From the NCBI GenBank assembly GCA_905235375.1, contig CAJOLH010000006.1:1-64000 (forward strand): a stretch of 64,000 nt of DNA, read 5' to 3'. A program made the position numbers and the translations under genes. A model generated the notes under the pieces. The model saw only the letters and a program-made list of their open reading frames with translations. It searched no databases and was not told where the DNA came from. Below are positions 12,053 through 40,795 of the stretch, piece by piece. Within the stretch, counting starts at the first letter, position 1. Every line of letters begins with the position of its first letter. The stretch is from an uncultured Bacteroidales bacterium (GTDB lineage Bacteria > Bacteroidota > Bacteroidia > Bacteroidales > UBA3663).

Positions 12053-12064
12053 TTTAATTTTTTT

Positions 12065-12114
12065 CTAGAGCATCTAGAATATCTAGAGTATCTAGAAAAT
12101 CTAGAATTCCTAGA
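12065..12114. repeat. Six CTAGA-type 9-bp tandem units before secA
   Basis: CTAGA begins at 12065, 12074, 12083, 12092, 12101 and 12110, an exact 9-bp period, with the four bases between units varying. The array occupies the gap between the PafA-like gene and secA. Confidence 0.9.
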
Positions 12115-12156
12115 CAATATAGCCCCGAATGAAATAAACAACAAAAAAATAAATAC

Positions 12157-30641: not shown

Positions 30642-30961
30642 CACCTAATGGTGGATTTTTTCACATTATGGACTGTTTTGGTCGAATTTTATGCAAAAAT
30701 ATCGGCTCTACCCTCCAATCTGCAAGCATTTTTGCTGGCTATCAGGCTACGCGGAGACCGCAGTCCGTGCCATTGAGTGACTGACAGAAGGATATTGCAT
30801 TTTGCCCAAATACCCCAGCTATTTTCGTGCGAATCCTCGTTTTTCCTTCAAAAGTCTTGGCAAAACCAAAATTTATCGCTATCTTCGCATCGTTTTTATG
30901 AGATAATGTTAAATAATATTCATTGTTCATTGTTAATTATTAATTGTTAATTGAAACAGTT
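30642..30961. other. Divergent intergenic region with leader repeats
   Basis: I see no gene in this region. It contains a candidate plus-strand promoter for the 46-aa gene: TTG at 30857-30859 and TATCTTCG at 30880-30887, 20 bp apart. Next comes a leader of five 7-bp units (30922-30956) of the form ATTGTTA that ends just before the ATG at 30962. A short reverse ORF (30742-30930) has no support. Confidence 0.5.
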
Positions 30962-31102
30962 ATGAAAGATAATTCCTGGCAGAACTTCTTGAACAAGGGA
31001 GCACAGAATGGCCCCAAGGGCAAGGGTGGCAAGCAGGCTGGTGCCGCTTCGACCAAGGGCAATAAGGCTGCTCCAAAGCAAATGAATCGTCGCTCGCAGT
31101 AA
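30962..31102 (+). CDS. Small basic Gly/Lys-rich protein, 46 aa
   Basis: The frame from ATG at 30962 to TAA at 31102 encodes a 46-aa strongly basic product with an MKDNSWQNFL start. A low-complexity Gly/Lys/Ala middle (PKGKGGKQAGAASTKG) and a QMNRRSQ end follow. Composition is GC-rich and codon use matches neighbouring genes, unlike the AT-rich DNA around it, which supports real coding. It has a candidate promoter and a leader of 7-bp repeats. I do not recognise the family; disordered, basic products of this size often bind nucleic acid. Its stop is 36 bp before the palindrome array at 31139-31632, which could form its 3' untranslated region. Confidence 0.6.
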   Translation: MKDNSWQNFLNKGAQNGPKGKGGKQAGAASTKGNKAAPKQMNRRSQ

Positions 31103-31138
31103 ATCCTGCGTTGCGTCCTTACAAAATCACCGAATAAT

Positions 31139-31632
31139 CGTAGCAAGCATTTTGTCGGCCGACAGGATGCTTGCTACGTTGTATAGAGTACTCTGTCGGC
31201 CGACAAAGTGCTATTTCCGTTCGCAGCATGACCTTTTTCGGCCAAGATTGGGTATGCTCCATTCGGAGAAAGCACTCTGTCGGCCGTCAGAGTGCTCCAT
31301 CCAATCGCGGCATGACCTTTTTCGGCCAGGATTGGGTATGCTCCATTCGGAGAAAGCACTCTGTCGGCCGTCAGAGTGCTTTATCCAATCGCAACATGAC
31401 CTTTTTCGGCCAAGATTGGGTATTCTTCATTCGGATAGAGCACTCTGTCGGCCGTCAGAGTGCTTTATTCAATCGCGGCATGACCTTTTTCGGCCAGGAT
31501 TGGGTATGCTCCGTTCGGAGGAAGCACTCTGTCGGCCGTCAGAGTGCTTTATTCAATCGCGACATGACCTTTTTCGGCCAAGATTGAGTATGCTTCGTTC
31601 GGAGGAAGCACTCTGTCGGCTGAAAGAGTGCT
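31139..31632 (+). repeat. Array of 84-bp units, each with a 26-bp palindrome
   Basis: Palindromic cores lie at 31187-31212, 31271-31296, 31355-31380, 31439-31464, 31523-31548 and 31607-31632, exactly 84 bp apart. The common core pairs AGCACTCTG with CAGAGTGCT around CGGCCG. A diverged 40-bp hairpin at 31139-31178 opens the array: its arms are CGTAGCAAGCAT/ATGCTTGCTACG, yet it keeps TGTCGGCCGACA in the centre. The 58-bp spacer is also conserved and can form a weaker CCAATC...GATTGG stem. This is a tandem repeat, not CRISPR, because the spacers are alike. It lies between the 46-aa gene and the subtilase terminator. Confidence 0.92.
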
Positions 31633-31678
31633 ATATCCGGCATATACACGAAATTATCAATTCAAAGTGGCTGATACC

Positions 31679-31726
31679 AAAAAAGGAGGGCGCACCTAAG
31701 TCGGGAAAGACTTTTGGCACGCCCTC
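31679..31726 (-). terminator. Rho-independent terminator of the subtilase gene
   Basis: On the minus strand GAGGGCG and CGCCCTC (arms at 31720-31726 and 31686-31692) pair, with an inner AAGTC/GACTT stem, followed by TTTTTT at 31684-31679. It begins 33 bp after the subtilase stop. Confidence 0.85.
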
Positions 31727-31758: not shown

Positions 31759-34700
31759 TTATTTGATCATTACCTTCTTGCCATCGATGATGTACATGCC
31801 CTTGTCGAGCGACTGGATGTCAGAGCCCACATACTGGCCATTGATGGTGAAGATGCGAGTTTCGCTCTGCTCATCGGCATTCATCGTGCTGATGCCTACG
31901 GTGCCCATATCGCCATGGTTGGTGCTGTTAGACCAAGAAGACTGGGTGGTCTGGAAGGCAATCTCGTAGAAGTAAGAACGCTTGAAGCTAACTACAACCT
32001 TATAGATCTTGCTGGCATCAAGATTGTCGAGCGTAATGATGAAGCTCTTGTATGAGGTAGTGTACGAAGCGGAAGTCACGGCTGTAGAAGAAGCGCTGAC
32101 GGAACCGTTGGACGATACTGAGCATTCATATACGCTGACGGTGGTGTTGCTGCCTGAGCGTGGGTTGTAACCATAGACCTTGACAGCTGTGAGGTTGGTC
32201 ACGTAGTAGGTCTGGGTAGCTGTGCCATTTGAGCTTGAGGTGACGGCACGTGCCGAAGAACTTGAGCCGCCCCACCAGCTGGTGGTTGTTCCAAAGTATG
32301 CCGAACTGCCCTGGAAGACATCGTTTGCGCTCCATGTGGTGCTTGTCGAACTGTTGCTGCTGTAAGTGAGCCAGCCCTGGCGGCTGCTCGAATAGTAAGC
32401 GCCGTATGGTGCAACGGTGAGCCATGCCGAACCATCAGACTTCTCCGAATAGGTGTAGAGGTTCTTCACACCACTGAAGCCGGCTTCGTCGATGGTGCTG
32501 TACTTGTGGAGGTTGAGGTAAGCGTCGGAAGCTGTACCACCAGCAGGCTCTTCTTCAGGATCCTCGACTACAGGAGCTGCAGTTGCAGTACCTGAAAGTG
32601 CTACACTGGCTGAAGCGCTACCGCTGGTGAGTGTTACGCTGCCGCTATAACTGCCAGCTGCCTCAGGACTGAATGTGACGGTAACGGTGGCACCTGCCAT
32701 AGCTGAAGCAGCGGTAATGGTTGAAGGACTGACGGCATAGACACCATTGTAGTCGGTGAGACGTACGCTGACGTTCGAAGTGAGGTCGGTACCGCTGACG
32801 GTGAAGGTCTGGCTGACAGGAGTACCTTCCTCTGTGCTGAAGCTAAGAGTTGAACCAGAAACATTCAGTACGGGATCAGGAGTTATTACCACGGGGTCTT
32901 CACTTGACACTGTGATGGTGGTCTTCTCGAAGAAATAGACATTCGATGAAGTGGAAGTGATGGTCCAACCATTCGAGTAGGCAAGGTACTTGGTGCCTCC
33001 ACCTGAATAGTAAAGCGATGCAGCATTGCTACCGACAGTCCAATTGGCCTTGCTGGTCGAAGTGCTGAGTGACAGCTTAGAGCTATTATGATAGAGATAG
33101 TAGCTGCCATTCTTGAACGTCTTGCTCGAACCACTGGTACCACAGGTCCAGACAGCATACGAACTGGGTTCCTCGATATAGATGATGTCGTCGTCACCAC
33201 TCAAGATAGTGACAGTGCTGTTCGCAACGCTTTGGCCAGAGGCGGTGAGTGCATTGGCCGATCCCACAGCATTCTTGTTGACAATCATGTACTCATTTCC
33301 CGAAGTGACGCTGCTGACGAGCTTATAGACCTCCTTGGTAGTAGATGTCGGGTCTGGGTCGGGATCGACCTGCTGAGCCACCGAAGTGCCAAAAAGGGCA
33401 ACGGTTACGGTAGCAGCTGAAGCGCTAGTAAGAGTGAGAGTTCCTGTGTAAGAACCTGCAGTGGCAGGAGCGGTGAAGGTCACGTTGACGGCCTTGCCCG
33501 AAGCAGCCTGGGTGACGGAAATGCTGGTGGCATCCACCGAGAATGCAGAACCGCTGGCTGCCACAGTGATGGCTCCGCTGAGGTCACTGCCGCTCACAGT
33601 GATCGTCTTGGTCTCGGTTTCACCTGCATTGGCCGAGAACGTCAAGCTCGAAACACTTGCCGTGATGACAGGAACAGCAGCTGCTTCAGCCGCACCGCTC
33701 AGGCTGATGGTTACACTCTGTGCGTTACTGCTTGCAAGGGTGAGGGTAGCCGAGGTGTTGCCTGCTGCTGTTGGAGTGTAGGTAACAGTAACGGTGGCAC
33801 CTGAGGTGGCATTGGCCTTGGTGATAGAGCTTGGCGAAACTGTGTAACAGCTCGAACCACTGATGGTAGCCGAAACAGCACCCTCAAGATCGGTACCAGT
33901 AACTGTGAAGGTCTTGGTGTAGGTCTGTCCTACGGTTCCCGAGAAGGCGAGTGACGAAGCACTTGCCGTGATGACTGGAGTAGTTACCACAGTTCCGGGA
34001 GTAGAACCGAGAATCTGCTGGAGACCTGCAAGCGCATCAATCTTACCATTACCGAAATGCGACGCATTAGCACCGCTGGTGGTGTAACTGTCGGTGATAG
34101 CGGTCTGTTTCATGATGGTCTTGACATCGTCGTTGGTCAGTGTCTTACCAGCCTCGGTGGCAGCTTGGAGCCAAAGGGCAACGATACCGGCAGCCACAGG
34201 AGTAGCCATCGAGGTACCCTCCATCATGGCGTATGGATAGGACGAGCTATTGACCACAAGGTCGCTGCTAAAGTTGCTGCCATAATAGCTATAGTCATCG
34301 ACGCTGGCGGTATGATAGTGGTTCACACCGGCAGCCAGACGGGCACCAGGAGCCGTAATCCACGGGTACTGAATGCCTGTAGGGCTCTGGCTCGCGGTAG
34401 CGTAGCTGGAAAAATAGGCGATGTCGCCAACAGTATAAACGTCGCTCATGCTGTAGGAAGAGCCACTAGCGGCATTCCAAGTATTGGCGGTTACGTATGC
34501 GCCAATGGAAATGACATTGGGATCAGTTGCTTCGTCACTTACACACATATCATCCGAACCGGCGGTCCAGGTGTAGTCGCTGGTCGAAAGGTGGTTGGTG
34601 AAGTAACCGTAGCTGCCTCCCCATGCGTCGATGGTGCAGCTGCCGCTTGTAGGATAGAACTGCACAGCCAAAGTATATTTACTCTTGTAGTAGGTGCTGC

Positions 34701-36147
34701 CGTTCTTGGTGGTCGTGGTATAACTCCTAGAGGTGAGACCCGAGGTGTAGAGCATGATCTGGCTCTTGTTGGAGCTGACATAATCCTTATAGGCATACAG
34801 TGTTCCGCTGAAATAGCTTGACAATCCGCTCACAGAGGCACCACTGGTGCTTGGGGTGACGGTGACTGAAGTCTTGACAGCACCTGTGCTAGAGTCAAGG
34901 ACGAAAATCTTGCAAGCAAGGCTGCCGCTGCTCAACTTCGAACGAGACCATGCATTGGCGATTATACCATAATAGTAGTAACCGGCATCGGTGTTGCTGT
35001 AGGAAGCAGCACGCAGGATAGACCCAAGAGGGCTACTGCTCGATGCAGTACCACTGATGTGATAGCCACCACCCTCGCCGTCCTTCGACTTACCACCGTC
35101 GTTGGAAGCTGCGAAGAGACAAACATGGTTGGGATGGCTCGAGCCAAAATACTGTGCAGTGATGTCGGCAAAGTCACCTGTACCATCATGAGGGCCATAC
35201 TGCGATCCCCAGCTGTTGCTAATTACCACAGGCTTGCCCTGAGCATCGGCATAGTCGCAAATCTTCTGGAAGGCGTTGGCCATATAGGTGCTCGAAAGGC
35301 CATTGATGCCTGCAAGATAAAGGTCTGCTCCTGGTGCCATACCACCGTAGGTAGCGTTGGCATGGTCGTTGGTGACAGTGACGCTCGAGCCGCTGACGAT
35401 GACGCTCGATCCACCAGCAGTCGAACTGGTATGCGTACCGTGGTCTTCGCTCTTTGTGTCGGTGGTGGGACTGCTGCTGGAGATGGAAGTATATTCCTTG
35501 GCACTTGAACCATTATATACATACGCGCGCTTGATACGCGAGTTGCCGCTGGCATCCTTGAATGCAATGTGCTGGAAGTCGATACCTGTGTCAATCACAC
35601 CAAGAACGACACCTGTGCCATCGTACTGCTTGCTGAGACCGAGAGCAACGGCATCGGCCGACTTGGTGAGGGCATCATCGACATTGGTTGCTTGACGTGC
35701 CTTGTTGGTGAATGGATGCATCAGCATCGAAACATTGATGCGCTTCACGTTGGTGAGACCGGCAACTTCCTCAATTCTTTCTACAGGGATAAGGGCAGTG
35801 TGGAGTCCGTTATTAAAGCTGCTCTGAATCTGGACACCTTTGTTGACCAGATCCCTGACATCGGCATTGTTCTCCATGCGGATGAAGGCCGAAATGTAAA
35901 CGCGGCCATCGATAGTGTCGGGAGCGGCATAGATACGATCATCATTCTTTGTGGGGCGAAGACGCTTACCAACGAACTCAAGGCCGAGCTGCTTCTCGGC
36001 TACAGCATTACGTTTCATTTCGAGCGCTCCATCACGTTCGTCAATGAACATTTTTGTTGAAATAGACAACTTGTTGCTGATGTCACTCTGACCAAAAGAC
36101 AGCATACTCGATGCCATCACAATAGCAAATAGTAAACCTTTTCTCAT
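31759..36147 (-). CDS. Secreted subtilisin-family (S8) serine protease with Ig-like repeats
   Basis: The 1462-aa protein has a signal peptide (1-19), an inhibitor-like prodomain (about 75-145) and a peptidase S8 domain with VIDTGID (D186), DHGTHT (H236) and GTSMATP (S646). A large insert lies between His and Ser. Ig-like repeats of about 95 residues follow: two in tandem (about 720-930), and another after a lectin-like beta segment that begins VYKLVSSVTSG. The last stretch (FTINGQYV...KGMYIIDGKKVMIK) resembles a type IX secretion sorting domain, so export to the surface is likely. The start at 36147 replaces a longer frame lacking a signal peptide. A well-matched promoter lies at 36194-36223. 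Confidence 0.9.
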   Translation of the reverse strand: MRKGLLFAIVMASSMLSFGQSDISNKLSISTKMFIDERDGALEMKRNAVAEKQLGLEFVGKRLRPTKNDDRIYAAPDTIDGRVYISAFIRMENNADVRDLVNKGVQIQSSFNNGLHTALIPVERIEEVAGLTNVKRINVSMLMHPFTNKARQATNVDDALTKSADAVALGLSKQYDGTGVVLGVIDTGIDFQHIAFKDASGNSRIKRAYVYNGSSAKEYTSISSSSPTTDTKSEDHGTHTSSTAGGSSVIVSGSSVTVTNDHANATYGGMAPGADLYLAGINGLSSTYMANAFQKICDYADAQGKPVVISNSWGSQYGPHDGTGDFADITAQYFGSSHPNHVCLFAASNDGGKSKDGEGGGYHISGTASSSSPLGSILRAASYSNTDAGYYYYGIIANAWSRSKLSSGSLACKIFVLDSSTGAVKTSVTVTPSTSGASVSGLSSYFSGTLYAYKDYVSSNKSQIMLYTSGLTSRSYTTTTKNGSTYYKSKYTLAVQFYPTSGSCTIDAWGGSYGYFTNHLSTSDYTWTAGSDDMCVSDEATDPNVISIGAYVTANTWNAASGSSYSMSDVYTVGDIAYFSSYATASQSPTGIQYPWITAPGARLAAGVNHYHTASVDDYSYYGSNFSSDLVVNSSSYPYAMMEGTSMATPVAAGIVALWLQAATEAGKTLTNDDVKTIMKQTAITDSYTTSGANASHFGNGKIDALAGLQQILGSTPGTVVTTPVITASASSLAFSGTVGQTYTKTFTVTGTDLEGAVSATISGSSCYTVSPSSITKANATSGATVTVTYTPTAAGNTSATLTLASSNAQSVTISLSGAAEAAAVPVITASVSSLTFSANAGETETKTITVSGSDLSGAITVAASGSAFSVDATSISVTQAASGKAVNVTFTAPATAGSYTGTLTLTSASAATVTVALFGTSVAQQVDPDPDPTSTTKEVYKLVSSVTSGNEYMIVNKNAVGSANALTASGQSVANSTVTILSGDDDIIYIEEPSSYAVWTCGTSGSSKTFKNGSYYLYHNSSKLSLSTSTSKANWTVGSNAASLYYSGGGTKYLAYSNGWTITSTSSNVYFFEKTTITVSSEDPVVITPDPVLNVSGSTLSFSTEEGTPVSQTFTVSGTDLTSNVSVRLTDYNGVYAVSPSTITAASAMAGATVTVTFSPEAAGSYSGSVTLTSGSASASVALSGTATAAPVVEDPEEEPAGGTASDAYLNLHKYSTIDEAGFSGVKNLYTYSEKSDGSAWLTVAPYGAYYSSSRQGWLTYSSNSSTSTTWSANDVFQGSSAYFGTTTSWWGGSSSSARAVTSSSNGTATQTYYVTNLTAVKVYGYNPRSGSNTTVSVYECSVSSNGSVSASSTAVTSASYTTSYKSFIITLDNLDASKIYKVVVSFKRSYFYEIAFQTTQSSWSNSTNHGDMGTVGISTMNADEQSETRIFTINGQYVGSDIQSLDKGMYIIDGKKVMIK

Positions 36148-36193
36148 AATAGAAAAAATAGAAATTGTAATGTAATATGTATAAAAAGCGCTA

Positions 36194-36223
36194 CAAAGAT
36201 ATACATTATTTTCATTCGTCAAA
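36194..36223 (-). promoter_or_regulatory. Sigma-ABfr promoter of the subtilase gene
   Basis: On the minus strand TTTG (36223-36220) is followed after 18 bp by TATCTTTG (36201-36194). The ATG at 36147 is 46 bp downstream. Confidence 0.65.
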
Positions 36224-39434: not shown

Positions 39435-40763
39435 TTAAATATTAGAGATTAGTGAATCGATTTCCTGTTTAGAACGCATTTCGGTGACGGCGATGGTGAG
39501 GCAGCCAGGCATACCCTCGGTCTCGACGCCCAGGAGGAAGCCCTTTTCGGCCAATGCCTTGCGAAGCTCAGCAGCATCGCCCTTGACACGCACGGTGAAC
39601 TCACAAAGGAAGGGCTTGGGGCCAAAGGCATCCTCAAACCTGCCCGTCTTGAGTAGTGCCTCATGCAGATAGTGGGCACCAGCATAACTCTGCTCGTTGA
39701 CTTCGCGCAATCCCTTTTCGCCCATCAGGCTGAGATAAGAGGCAACGAAAAGGCACATGAATCCTTGCGCCGTGCAGATGTTGCTGGTGGCTTTCTCGCG
39801 GCGGATGTGCTGCTCGCGAGCCTGCATGGTGAGGACGAAGGCACGACGACCCTCGGCATCGGTGGTGGCACCGACAAGACGACCCGGCATCTTGCGCACC
39901 AGTTCGTTCTTGGTACAAAGATAACCGATGTAGGGACCTCCGTAGTTCATCGGAATACCCAAGCTCTGGGCATCACCGCACGCAATGTCGGCACCCCATT
40001 CTCCAGGAGTGCGGAGCACACCAAGAGCGCTGGCAACGCTATTGACTGCGAAGAGCGCCTTGTGGGCGTGGCAAAGGTCGGCAAGACCAGAGAAGTCCTC
40101 GATGATGCCGTAGTAATTGGGCTGGCTGACGATAAGGCCAGCAACGTCATCGTTTTCGATGAGTGCCTTGGCCTCAGCCTTGTCCATCACGCCATCGGCA
40201 GCAGGCACCTTGACGAGTTCCACGTTGTGATACTTAGCATAGGTCTCAACCACGCGCAGCACTTGCGGATTGGACGTGGCGGAGATAAGCACCTTGTTGC
40301 GCTTCTTGGCATTCGCCACGCACATCAGCATAGCCTCGGCAGTGGCCGTGGAGCCATCATACATCGAAGCATTCGACAGGTCCATACCTGTGAGGTCGGC
40401 CATCATGGTCTGATACTCGAAGATATATTGCAGCGTACCCTGCGAAATCTCGGCCTGATAGGGAGTATAACTGGTGGAAAACTCGCTGCGGCTGGCGAGG
40501 AAAGGAACTACGCTGGGGGTATAGTGGTCGTAGGAACCACTGCCGGCAAAGCAGAGAAGCGGTTTGTTCTGTGCAGCCAGGTCGCCGATGATGCGGCGCA
40601 CCTCCACCTCCGACTTCTCAGACGGGATGTCGAGCTCGCGCTTCAACTTCAGTTCCTCGGGAATCTCGGCATAAAGTTCGTCGAGAGACTGAACACCGAT
40701 GACACCCAGCATCTGCTGAATGTCATCGGACGTATGGGGAAAATATTTGTACATATTTTTCAA
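39435..40763 (-). CDS. gcvPA: Glycine dehydrogenase (decarboxylating) subunit 1
   Basis: This is the N-terminal half of the P-protein, 442 aa, with a PLP-transferase fold but no PLP lysine, as expected for subunit 1. Typical stretches are PHTSDDIQQML at the N-terminus, TPYQAEISQGTLQ near 108 and MNYGGPYIGYL near 272. It works as a heterodimer with GcvPB. The leader between gcvH and this gene holds five tandem 7-bp CAATTAA units (40761-40795). Confidence 0.95.
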   Translation of the reverse strand: MKNMYKYFPHTSDDIQQMLGVIGVQSLDELYAEIPEELKLKRELDIPSEKSEVEVRRIIGDLAAQNKPLLCFAGSGSYDHYTPSVVPFLASRSEFSTSYTPYQAEISQGTLQYIFEYQTMMADLTGMDLSNASMYDGSTATAEAMLMCVANAKKRNKVLISATSNPQVLRVVETYAKYHNVELVKVPAADGVMDKAEAKALIENDDVAGLIVSQPNYYGIIEDFSGLADLCHAHKALFAVNSVASALGVLRTPGEWGADIACGDAQSLGIPMNYGGPYIGYLCTKNELVRKMPGRLVGATTDAEGRRAFVLTMQAREQHIRREKATSNICTAQGFMCLFVASYLSLMGEKGLREVNEQSYAGAHYLHEALLKTGRFEDAFGPKPFLCEFTVRVKGDAAELRKALAEKGFLLGVETEGMPGCLTIAVTEMRSKQEIDSLISNI

Positions 40764-40795
40764 TTAACAATTAACAGTTAACAATTAACAATTAA
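40761..40795. repeat. Five 7-bp leader units before gcvPA
   Basis: CAATTAA-type words start at 40761, 40768, 40775, 40782 and 40789. On the minus strand they read TTAATTG/TTAACTG and end next to the gcvPA start codon. The same kind of word precedes feoAB (4147-4165) and the 46-aa gene (30922-30956). Confidence 0.85.

Follow-up and report, generated by a model that had tools for sequence, protein, structure and literature searches.

BrickBuilt of Porphyromonas gingivalis, which is the closest in kind to the arrays considered here among known systems, consists of 23-nt direct repeats in 1-22.8 copies, with a leader and a tail that have terminal inverted repeats (PMC4596501). The REP/BIME elements are intergenic palindromes with tags and RAYT transposases (PMC3733652). 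Intergenic repeats of bacteria are commonly taken for selfish elements or for loose clusters. Centromere-like iteron arrays, such as parS clusters and plasmid parC, are made of phased dyad or direct sites bound by dimers, and CRISPR arrays have a constant period, a partly palindromic repeat and a less conserved end repeat.

Here we analyse an array of palindromes in the window, i.e. the whole stretch of 64,000 nucleotides from an uncultured Bacteroidales bacterium, together with similar arrays in the same genome and in its relatives. A description of such arrays was not found in the open-access literature, and according to our analysis they match no catalogued repeat among those testable.

Results

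The array at 31138-31640 consists of 12 units in the order A A B A B A B A B A B A (Table 1), in which two unrelated palindromes, A of 26 bp (consensus AGCACTCTGWCGSSCGWCAGAGTGCT) and B of 32 bp (consensus roughly GCATRACCWWTYTTGGCCAARAWWGGTYATGC), alternate on a 42-bp lattice. The first-pass annotation of this DNA described six cores with an exact 84-bp spacing, and they are indeed present, the A cores between 31187 and 31632 being centred at about 31200, 31284, 31368, 31452, 31536 and 31620, and TRF returning a period of 84 (5.3 copies, 89% matches). Half of the repeat had, however, been overlooked: B palindromes (for example GCATGACCTTTTTCGGCCAAGATTGGGTATGC), centred at about 31242, 31326, 31410, 31494 and 31578, sit exactly halfway between the A cores, so the 84-bp unit is a dimer and the real period is 42 bp. 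The step is 41 bp once, after unit 1, and 42 bp everywhere else. The leading 40-nt hairpin at 31139-31178, which had also been pointed out, is confirmed with arms that are 90% complementary, and is merely the best-paired end unit of the array. The 42-bp-periodic palindrome score is 0.72 at the array versus a maximum of 0.45 in the shuffled window sequence, and the array is therefore not a matter of chance.

Table 1. Units of the array and its neighbours, in positions of the window
Feature	Position	Strand	Remark
46-aa basic protein gene	30962..31102	+	upstream neighbour; without Pfam family
Unit 1	31138..31178		end unit, A-like core; near-perfect 40-nt palindrome CGTAGCAAGCAT..ATGCTTGCTACG
Unit 2, A core	31179..31220		
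Unit 3, B core	31221..31262		
Unit 4, A core (AGCACTCTGTCGGCCGTCAGAGTGCT)	31263..31304		
Unit 5, B core	31305..31346		
Unit 6, A core	31347..31388		
Unit 7, B core	31389..31430		
Unit 8, A core	31431..31472		
Unit 9, B core	31473..31514		
Unit 10, A core	31515..31556		
Unit 11, B core	31557..31598		
Unit 12, A core with changed centre	31599..31640		opposite end unit
Inverted repeat GAGGGCG..CGCCCTC	31686..31726	-	just past the stop codon of the subtilase gene
Subtilase-family (Peptidase_S8) gene	31759..36222	-	convergent neighbour

The small basic protein encoded upstream had been proposed for a test of binding to the core. Its gene is intact in two relatives that have a single hairpin alone at that place (L132 and L134), and the neighbours of other arrays are unrelated to it, so it is not part of the array system; since the gene is kept without the array, its product is also an unlikely binder. 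On the other side, the inverted repeat is probably the terminator of the subtilase gene and is conserved in L131-L134, whether the array is present or not. This conserved repeat is outside the array, which is therefore unlikely to belong to the subtilase mRNA.

Neighbours of the arrays in general are ordinary and mutually unrelated genes (peptidases, glycoside hydrolases, MutS, dehydrogenases and others), with no par genes among those inspected. The arrays are intergenic and lie mostly downstream of genes. By a simple ORF survey, 60 genes faced them with their 3' end versus 19 with their 5' end, and an initial survey had shown one divergent pair. Insertion beside intrinsic terminators looked striking at first glance and was dropped after strict detection, which found them at 9 of the 60 facing 3' ends. 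Unit polarity agrees weakly with GC skew (28 of 41 and 33 of 48, p 0.03 and 0.01), and its relation to the coding strand was not significant.

Other repeats were noticed in the window. AT-rich heptamer repeats (ATTGTTA, CAATTAA) occur at 30922-30953, before the 46-aa gene, and at 40761-40795, beside the start of a 442-aa gene (39435-40763); a TCTAGA-rich tandem 9/18-bp repeat lies at 12064-12122, and the segment 39303-39431, between two genes, holds a 20-bp repeat GGGATAAGAAGGGATATTTG near a 10-bp repeat TCCCTTAGAA.

In the assembly to which the window belongs (3.87 Mb, 125 contigs) a search found 217 matches, and at least about 35 clusters with 372 A and B units; of 335 steps in these clusters, 289 measure 42 bp and 41 measure 41 bp. 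Further arrays were found by the linker dyad TNCRAYNGNAG alone at 42-bp steps, with counts at 2 mismatches of 28+20 in this genome versus 0 for the reversed control. Arrays number at least 45 in this genome and are A-only, B-only, mixed or built of other cores, namely C (ATGTCC..GGACAT), D (AATGGA..TCCATT), E (GTCCAATT..AATTGGAC) and, in relatives, F (GCATACAG..CTGTATGC); the linker is common to all of them, and units stand in either orientation, also within one array. Pooled over about 880 steps, the distance was 42 bp in 798, 41 bp in 74 and 43 bp in 6.

Complete arrays of this genome (n=43) have 10-13 units, with a mean of 11.44 and SD of 0.79, and those of relatives (n=45) have a mean of 10.18 and SD of 1.20, these lengths being read from short-read drafts with many contigs ending in or near arrays, which may carry an assembly bias. 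Every core family of this genome has complete arrays of about 11 units. Among the matches listed, where isolated single units are possibly under-sampled, the run sizes are bimodal: 1 (4 runs), 2 (1), 4 (1) and 10-13 (43). The 4-unit run sits close to the end of a contig, and two single hits are pieces of the same array, L048, which is diverged and truncated.

Where an A array or unit stands beside a C array, the centre-to-centre gap is 125, 124, 125, 125 and 125 bp (L021, L024, L048, L176 and L195; 5 of 5 cases, at different loci of two species). This gap of 124-125 bp corresponds to three steps minus one base, and the helical register is thus carried across it.

Some arrays also resemble each other outside their cores. 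A and C arrays lie side by side at L021:3584-4167, L048, L176 and L195; the spacer is recognisably alike in the last three (TTTAGAACCNGTG..GTCGGAAAGACGGTAATC), and pieces of this spacer are found again next to arrays L042, L043 and L177. The D arrays L171-L174, at several loci, have inner units that are nearly identical, end on the right in a distinct unit that is similar among them (e.g. GAGCATCTACGGACGCAGACGTGCTATATACGA) and share the flank motif TGAGATNG, which suggests a recent spread with defined ends.

It had been suggested that paired changes on both arms keep the folded form, and that copies changing one arm without the other would speak against it. The latter is what we see, and the suggestion fails. 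Orthologous arrays have 51 paired positions with a one-arm change that makes or breaks a Watson-Crick pair versus 2 compensated double changes that keep the pairing, and already in the window the observation was only partly right, since the first core carries changes on one arm without a partner on the other (AGTACTCTG / CAAAGTGCT). When all paired positions are counted, G.T mismatches are as frequent as A.C ones (351 vs 356), which disfavours selection on an RNA stem; when units were oriented by their own asymmetry, the ratio was 176 to 110 for A and 50 to 43 for B, less than 2 to 1. A kissing-loop reading of the A..A-flanked CGGCCG core was dropped, as no wobble bias was seen, and a search of Rfam gave 0 matches at gathering score.

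In scripted pairing tests the right arms were shuffled among units of the same array, and this did not lower the pairing (overall z in this genome -0.1 for A, -4.6 for B, -5.6 for C and -0.9 for D; in relatives -2.2 for A and -1.4 for B), so the two arms of the units in one array change independently of each other, or even in the sense opposed to pairing. A positive association was found for the central A pair and, in relatives, for a few inner B pairs, with none that was clear in the outer arms. The anti-pairing bias of B and C means that the units are not perfect dyads. Perfect palindromes are unstable in bacteria, and this slight bias may reflect their removal.

Particular positions of the cores are under tight constraint. 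The B positions +-12/13 (AT) and A position +-9 are 99-100% fixed and the adjacent ones vary by transitions, and the symmetry runs on through the core centre, where a hairpin would have an unpaired loop. Fixed positions and symmetry through the centre together point to a protein of two-fold symmetry that reads duplex DNA sequence-specifically, and it is well supported that the arrays are read as double-stranded DNA.

The A core occurs in six ruminant Bacteroidales MAGs, RUG465 (G003), RGIG7607 (G007), RGIG7573 (G004), RGIG8089 (G006), Tb.RUG.418 (G011) and RGIG9735. Arrays of A and B are present in 6 of the 15 genomes of the genus, and the remaining 84 genomes searched for them gave one weak match only. 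The search of related genomes, which the first-pass annotation had proposed, thus found palindrome arrays in five sister species, many of them at orthologous sites, and a tandem expansion specific to this strain can be set aside. The linker-lattice pattern, searched in 393 genomes of the order, had matches in 8 genomes outside the genus, several of which resembled other or coding repeats on inspection. A phage, plasmid or viral origin was also considered and rejected, INPHARED, PLSDB and IMG/VR having given no match.

Several more distant 42-bp repeats deserve a mention. At L186:1400-1690 (G001, from a clade without A/B arrays) five units of a different palindrome, GAAGGCTCTATGTAATTTTACAAACAGGCTTC, follow each other at 42-bp steps. 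A genome of another family (G293) has 42-bp tandem arrays at L210:1437-1815, with six units of a CTTCCGTA..TACGGAAG palindrome, and at L206:1270-1668, which are possibly an independent analogue. The 42-bp repeat at L204:1430-1641 (G168) resembles code for 14-residue YadA-head-type repeats and probably matches the linker pattern through its codons alone.

By comparison of their flanks, many arrays are orthologous in position. That of the window corresponds to L091 of RUG465 (12 vs 10 units, flanks 86-90% identical), and further orthologous sets are L047/L093/L125, L034/L100/L107/L117, L031/L092/L104/L124 and L090/L098/L106/L127. Between species the end units tend to stay and the inner units are replaced together; at one site nearly all units are B here versus alternating A and B in RUG465, with the step unchanged. 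The inner units are homogenised within arrays: their likeness within an array is 0.816 for A and 0.833 for C, that of end to inner units 0.717 and 0.665, and that between arrays 0.664 and 0.731.

Relatives also show that arrays are gained and lost. A single A-like palindrome with a T-run behind it is all that G007 and G004 have at the window site, G006 is without a palindrome there, and the L047 site is empty in G004 and G007. The lone palindrome may be a seed or a remnant; L176, where a single A unit lies at the same distance of 125 bp from a C array, agrees with the latter.

Discussion

We propose that the array is a lattice of duplex DNA-binding sites, the geometry of which is held by selection and the role of which is likely architectural, and we would give this proposal an even chance. 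Among the four guesses offered by the first-pass annotation, a DNA-binding array fits best, and a recombination site and the two RNA readings, a 3' UTR and a small-RNA array, fare worse. Dyad sites in a fixed helical phase, as a protein-binding lattice should have, were found both in the 42/41-bp steps and across the 124-125-bp composite gap; the fact that some close relatives are without an array at a given site counts against it, as does the anti-pairing bias of B and C.

Each 42-bp unit would offer a dyad-symmetric core to a dimeric protein, and adjacent cores would be joined by the common dyad linker, roughly YTNCRA/YNGNAG. As the step equals four helical turns at 10.5 bp per turn, all cores, even those of arrays joined via the 124-125-bp gap, would lie on one helix face. 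Bound proteins may then touch each other and form a regular nucleoprotein filament of about 11 dimers; it is from phase and number that we infer cooperative binding. Each of the core families A-F may have its own reader among proteins that are probably paralogs, or a single lax protein may read them all, with selection holding the lattice, that is spacing and number, and not the core sequence. Inheritance of the arrays would be vertical; unequal exchange or slippage would homogenise their interior, and between intergenic sites arrays would be copied or lost. Their likely architectural role could be to anchor, to separate transcription units as a boundary or insulator, or to start nucleation in the manner of a centromere; taking in mind the position of the arrays, our guess is a part in chromosome architecture or at gene boundaries. 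Array size and spread could also stem from a copying mechanism without host function.

If spacing and number are held while sequence is replaced, selection acts on geometry and not on sequence. We may even suggest, as a doubtful extension, a quantised chromosome-wide nucleoprotein system of about 11 dimers placed exactly four turns apart, with fixed geometry and a common linker but swappable cores, so that several orthogonal array 'alphabets', read by paralogs, coexist in one genome. If this is true, the arrays would serve chromosome scaffolding, or be sponges for rapidly changing DNA-binding proteins. A held spacing and number would also make the arrays of rumen Bacteroidales a set of phased binding sites ready for tests, in which orthologous sites without an array serve as natural controls.

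The chief alternative to the lattice is a selfish non-autonomous mobile repeat, a MITE-like minisatellite such as BrickBuilt, with no host function, where a putative transposase or recombinase would recognise the dyads, copy whole arrays, impose their geometry and fix their size and ends. It is rather unlikely in our view, and both explanations could hold together. The same core families at dozens of loci, presence or absence at orthologous sites, end units and flanks common to some loci (D arrays L171-L173, the A-C spacer), the intergenic position, the limitation to one group and the precedent of BrickBuilt in the same order (PMC4596501) all agree with mobility; yet BrickBuilt has 1 to 22.8 repeats (PMC4596501) versus 10-13 here, and the empty sites that were read showed neither a target-site duplication nor a terminal inverted repeat. 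Nor does a Y1/RAYT transposase (PF01797) track with the arrays as a partner: it is absent from the carriers G000, G003, G004 and G006, drafts that are 78-90% complete, and present in the carriers G007 and G011, as well as in genomes, including a clade, without A/B arrays.

That the hairpins are transcribed as a structured 3' UTR or small-RNA array seems improbable to us. The predicted fold is very stable (z -17.45) and many arrays stand 3' of genes, but a good fold is expected of any tandem palindrome, compensatory change is nearly absent (51 vs 2), no wobble excess was seen, the symmetric cores run through the would-be loops, and nothing reaches the Rfam gathering scores. We would give as little credit to sites for site-specific recombination, with arms round a slightly asymmetric 8-bp centre as for tyrosine recombinases. 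In the A core, arms of 9 bp do flank a centre of 8 bp whose asymmetry is conserved (A..A or T..T at +-3), and units occur in both orientations; however, the other core families are without the same arm and centre plan, inverted or shuffled flanking segments were not noticed in an unsystematic inspection, and we know of no counterpart to eleven abutting recombination sites without cargo. A repeat coding for 14-aa units, or a decayed one, is hardly credible. It has in its favour that 42 is a multiple of three and that some frames are open for >100 aa, against 41-bp steps that break the frame in many arrays, both unit orientations within one array, frequent TAA/TGA stops (in GCATRACC) on inspection in the frame otherwise open in other families, and no conserved start or flanking domain seen.

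Comparison with known systems

CRISPR arrays are set apart by their identical repeats and unique spacers, unlike the segments between linkers here, which are palindromes that all recur within an array and between loci. From centromere-like iterons the arrays differ by their presence in tens per chromosome and by several core sequences.

With REP/BIME they share short intergenic palindromes, often clustered, beside convergent or co-directional genes and mostly downstream of coding regions, and A of 26 bp and B of 32 bp in hundreds of units agree with the size of 20-40 bp and high copy number of that class. The second letter of a possible GTAG tag, at position 17 left of the A centre, is T in 14 of 242 units, and no CGTC tag stands at a fixed place in the units displayed. 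The absence of these tags and, in the main carriers, of RAYT sets the arrays apart from REP/BIME, and arrays of about 11 units, a fixed 42-bp step and exchangeable unrelated cores are further differences.

The likeness to BrickBuilt lies in intergenic tandem repeats of Bacteroidales with many dispersed imperfect copies, a narrow host range and presence or absence between strains. As for a leader and tail of the BrickBuilt type, a common pair of terminal inverted repeats was not found, and some flank motifs and end units recur. The repeat number, which varies freely in BrickBuilt, is 10-13 in 43 arrays. Unlike BrickBuilt, the arrays described here are built of 42-bp dyad units, in 10-13 copies and with several core families.
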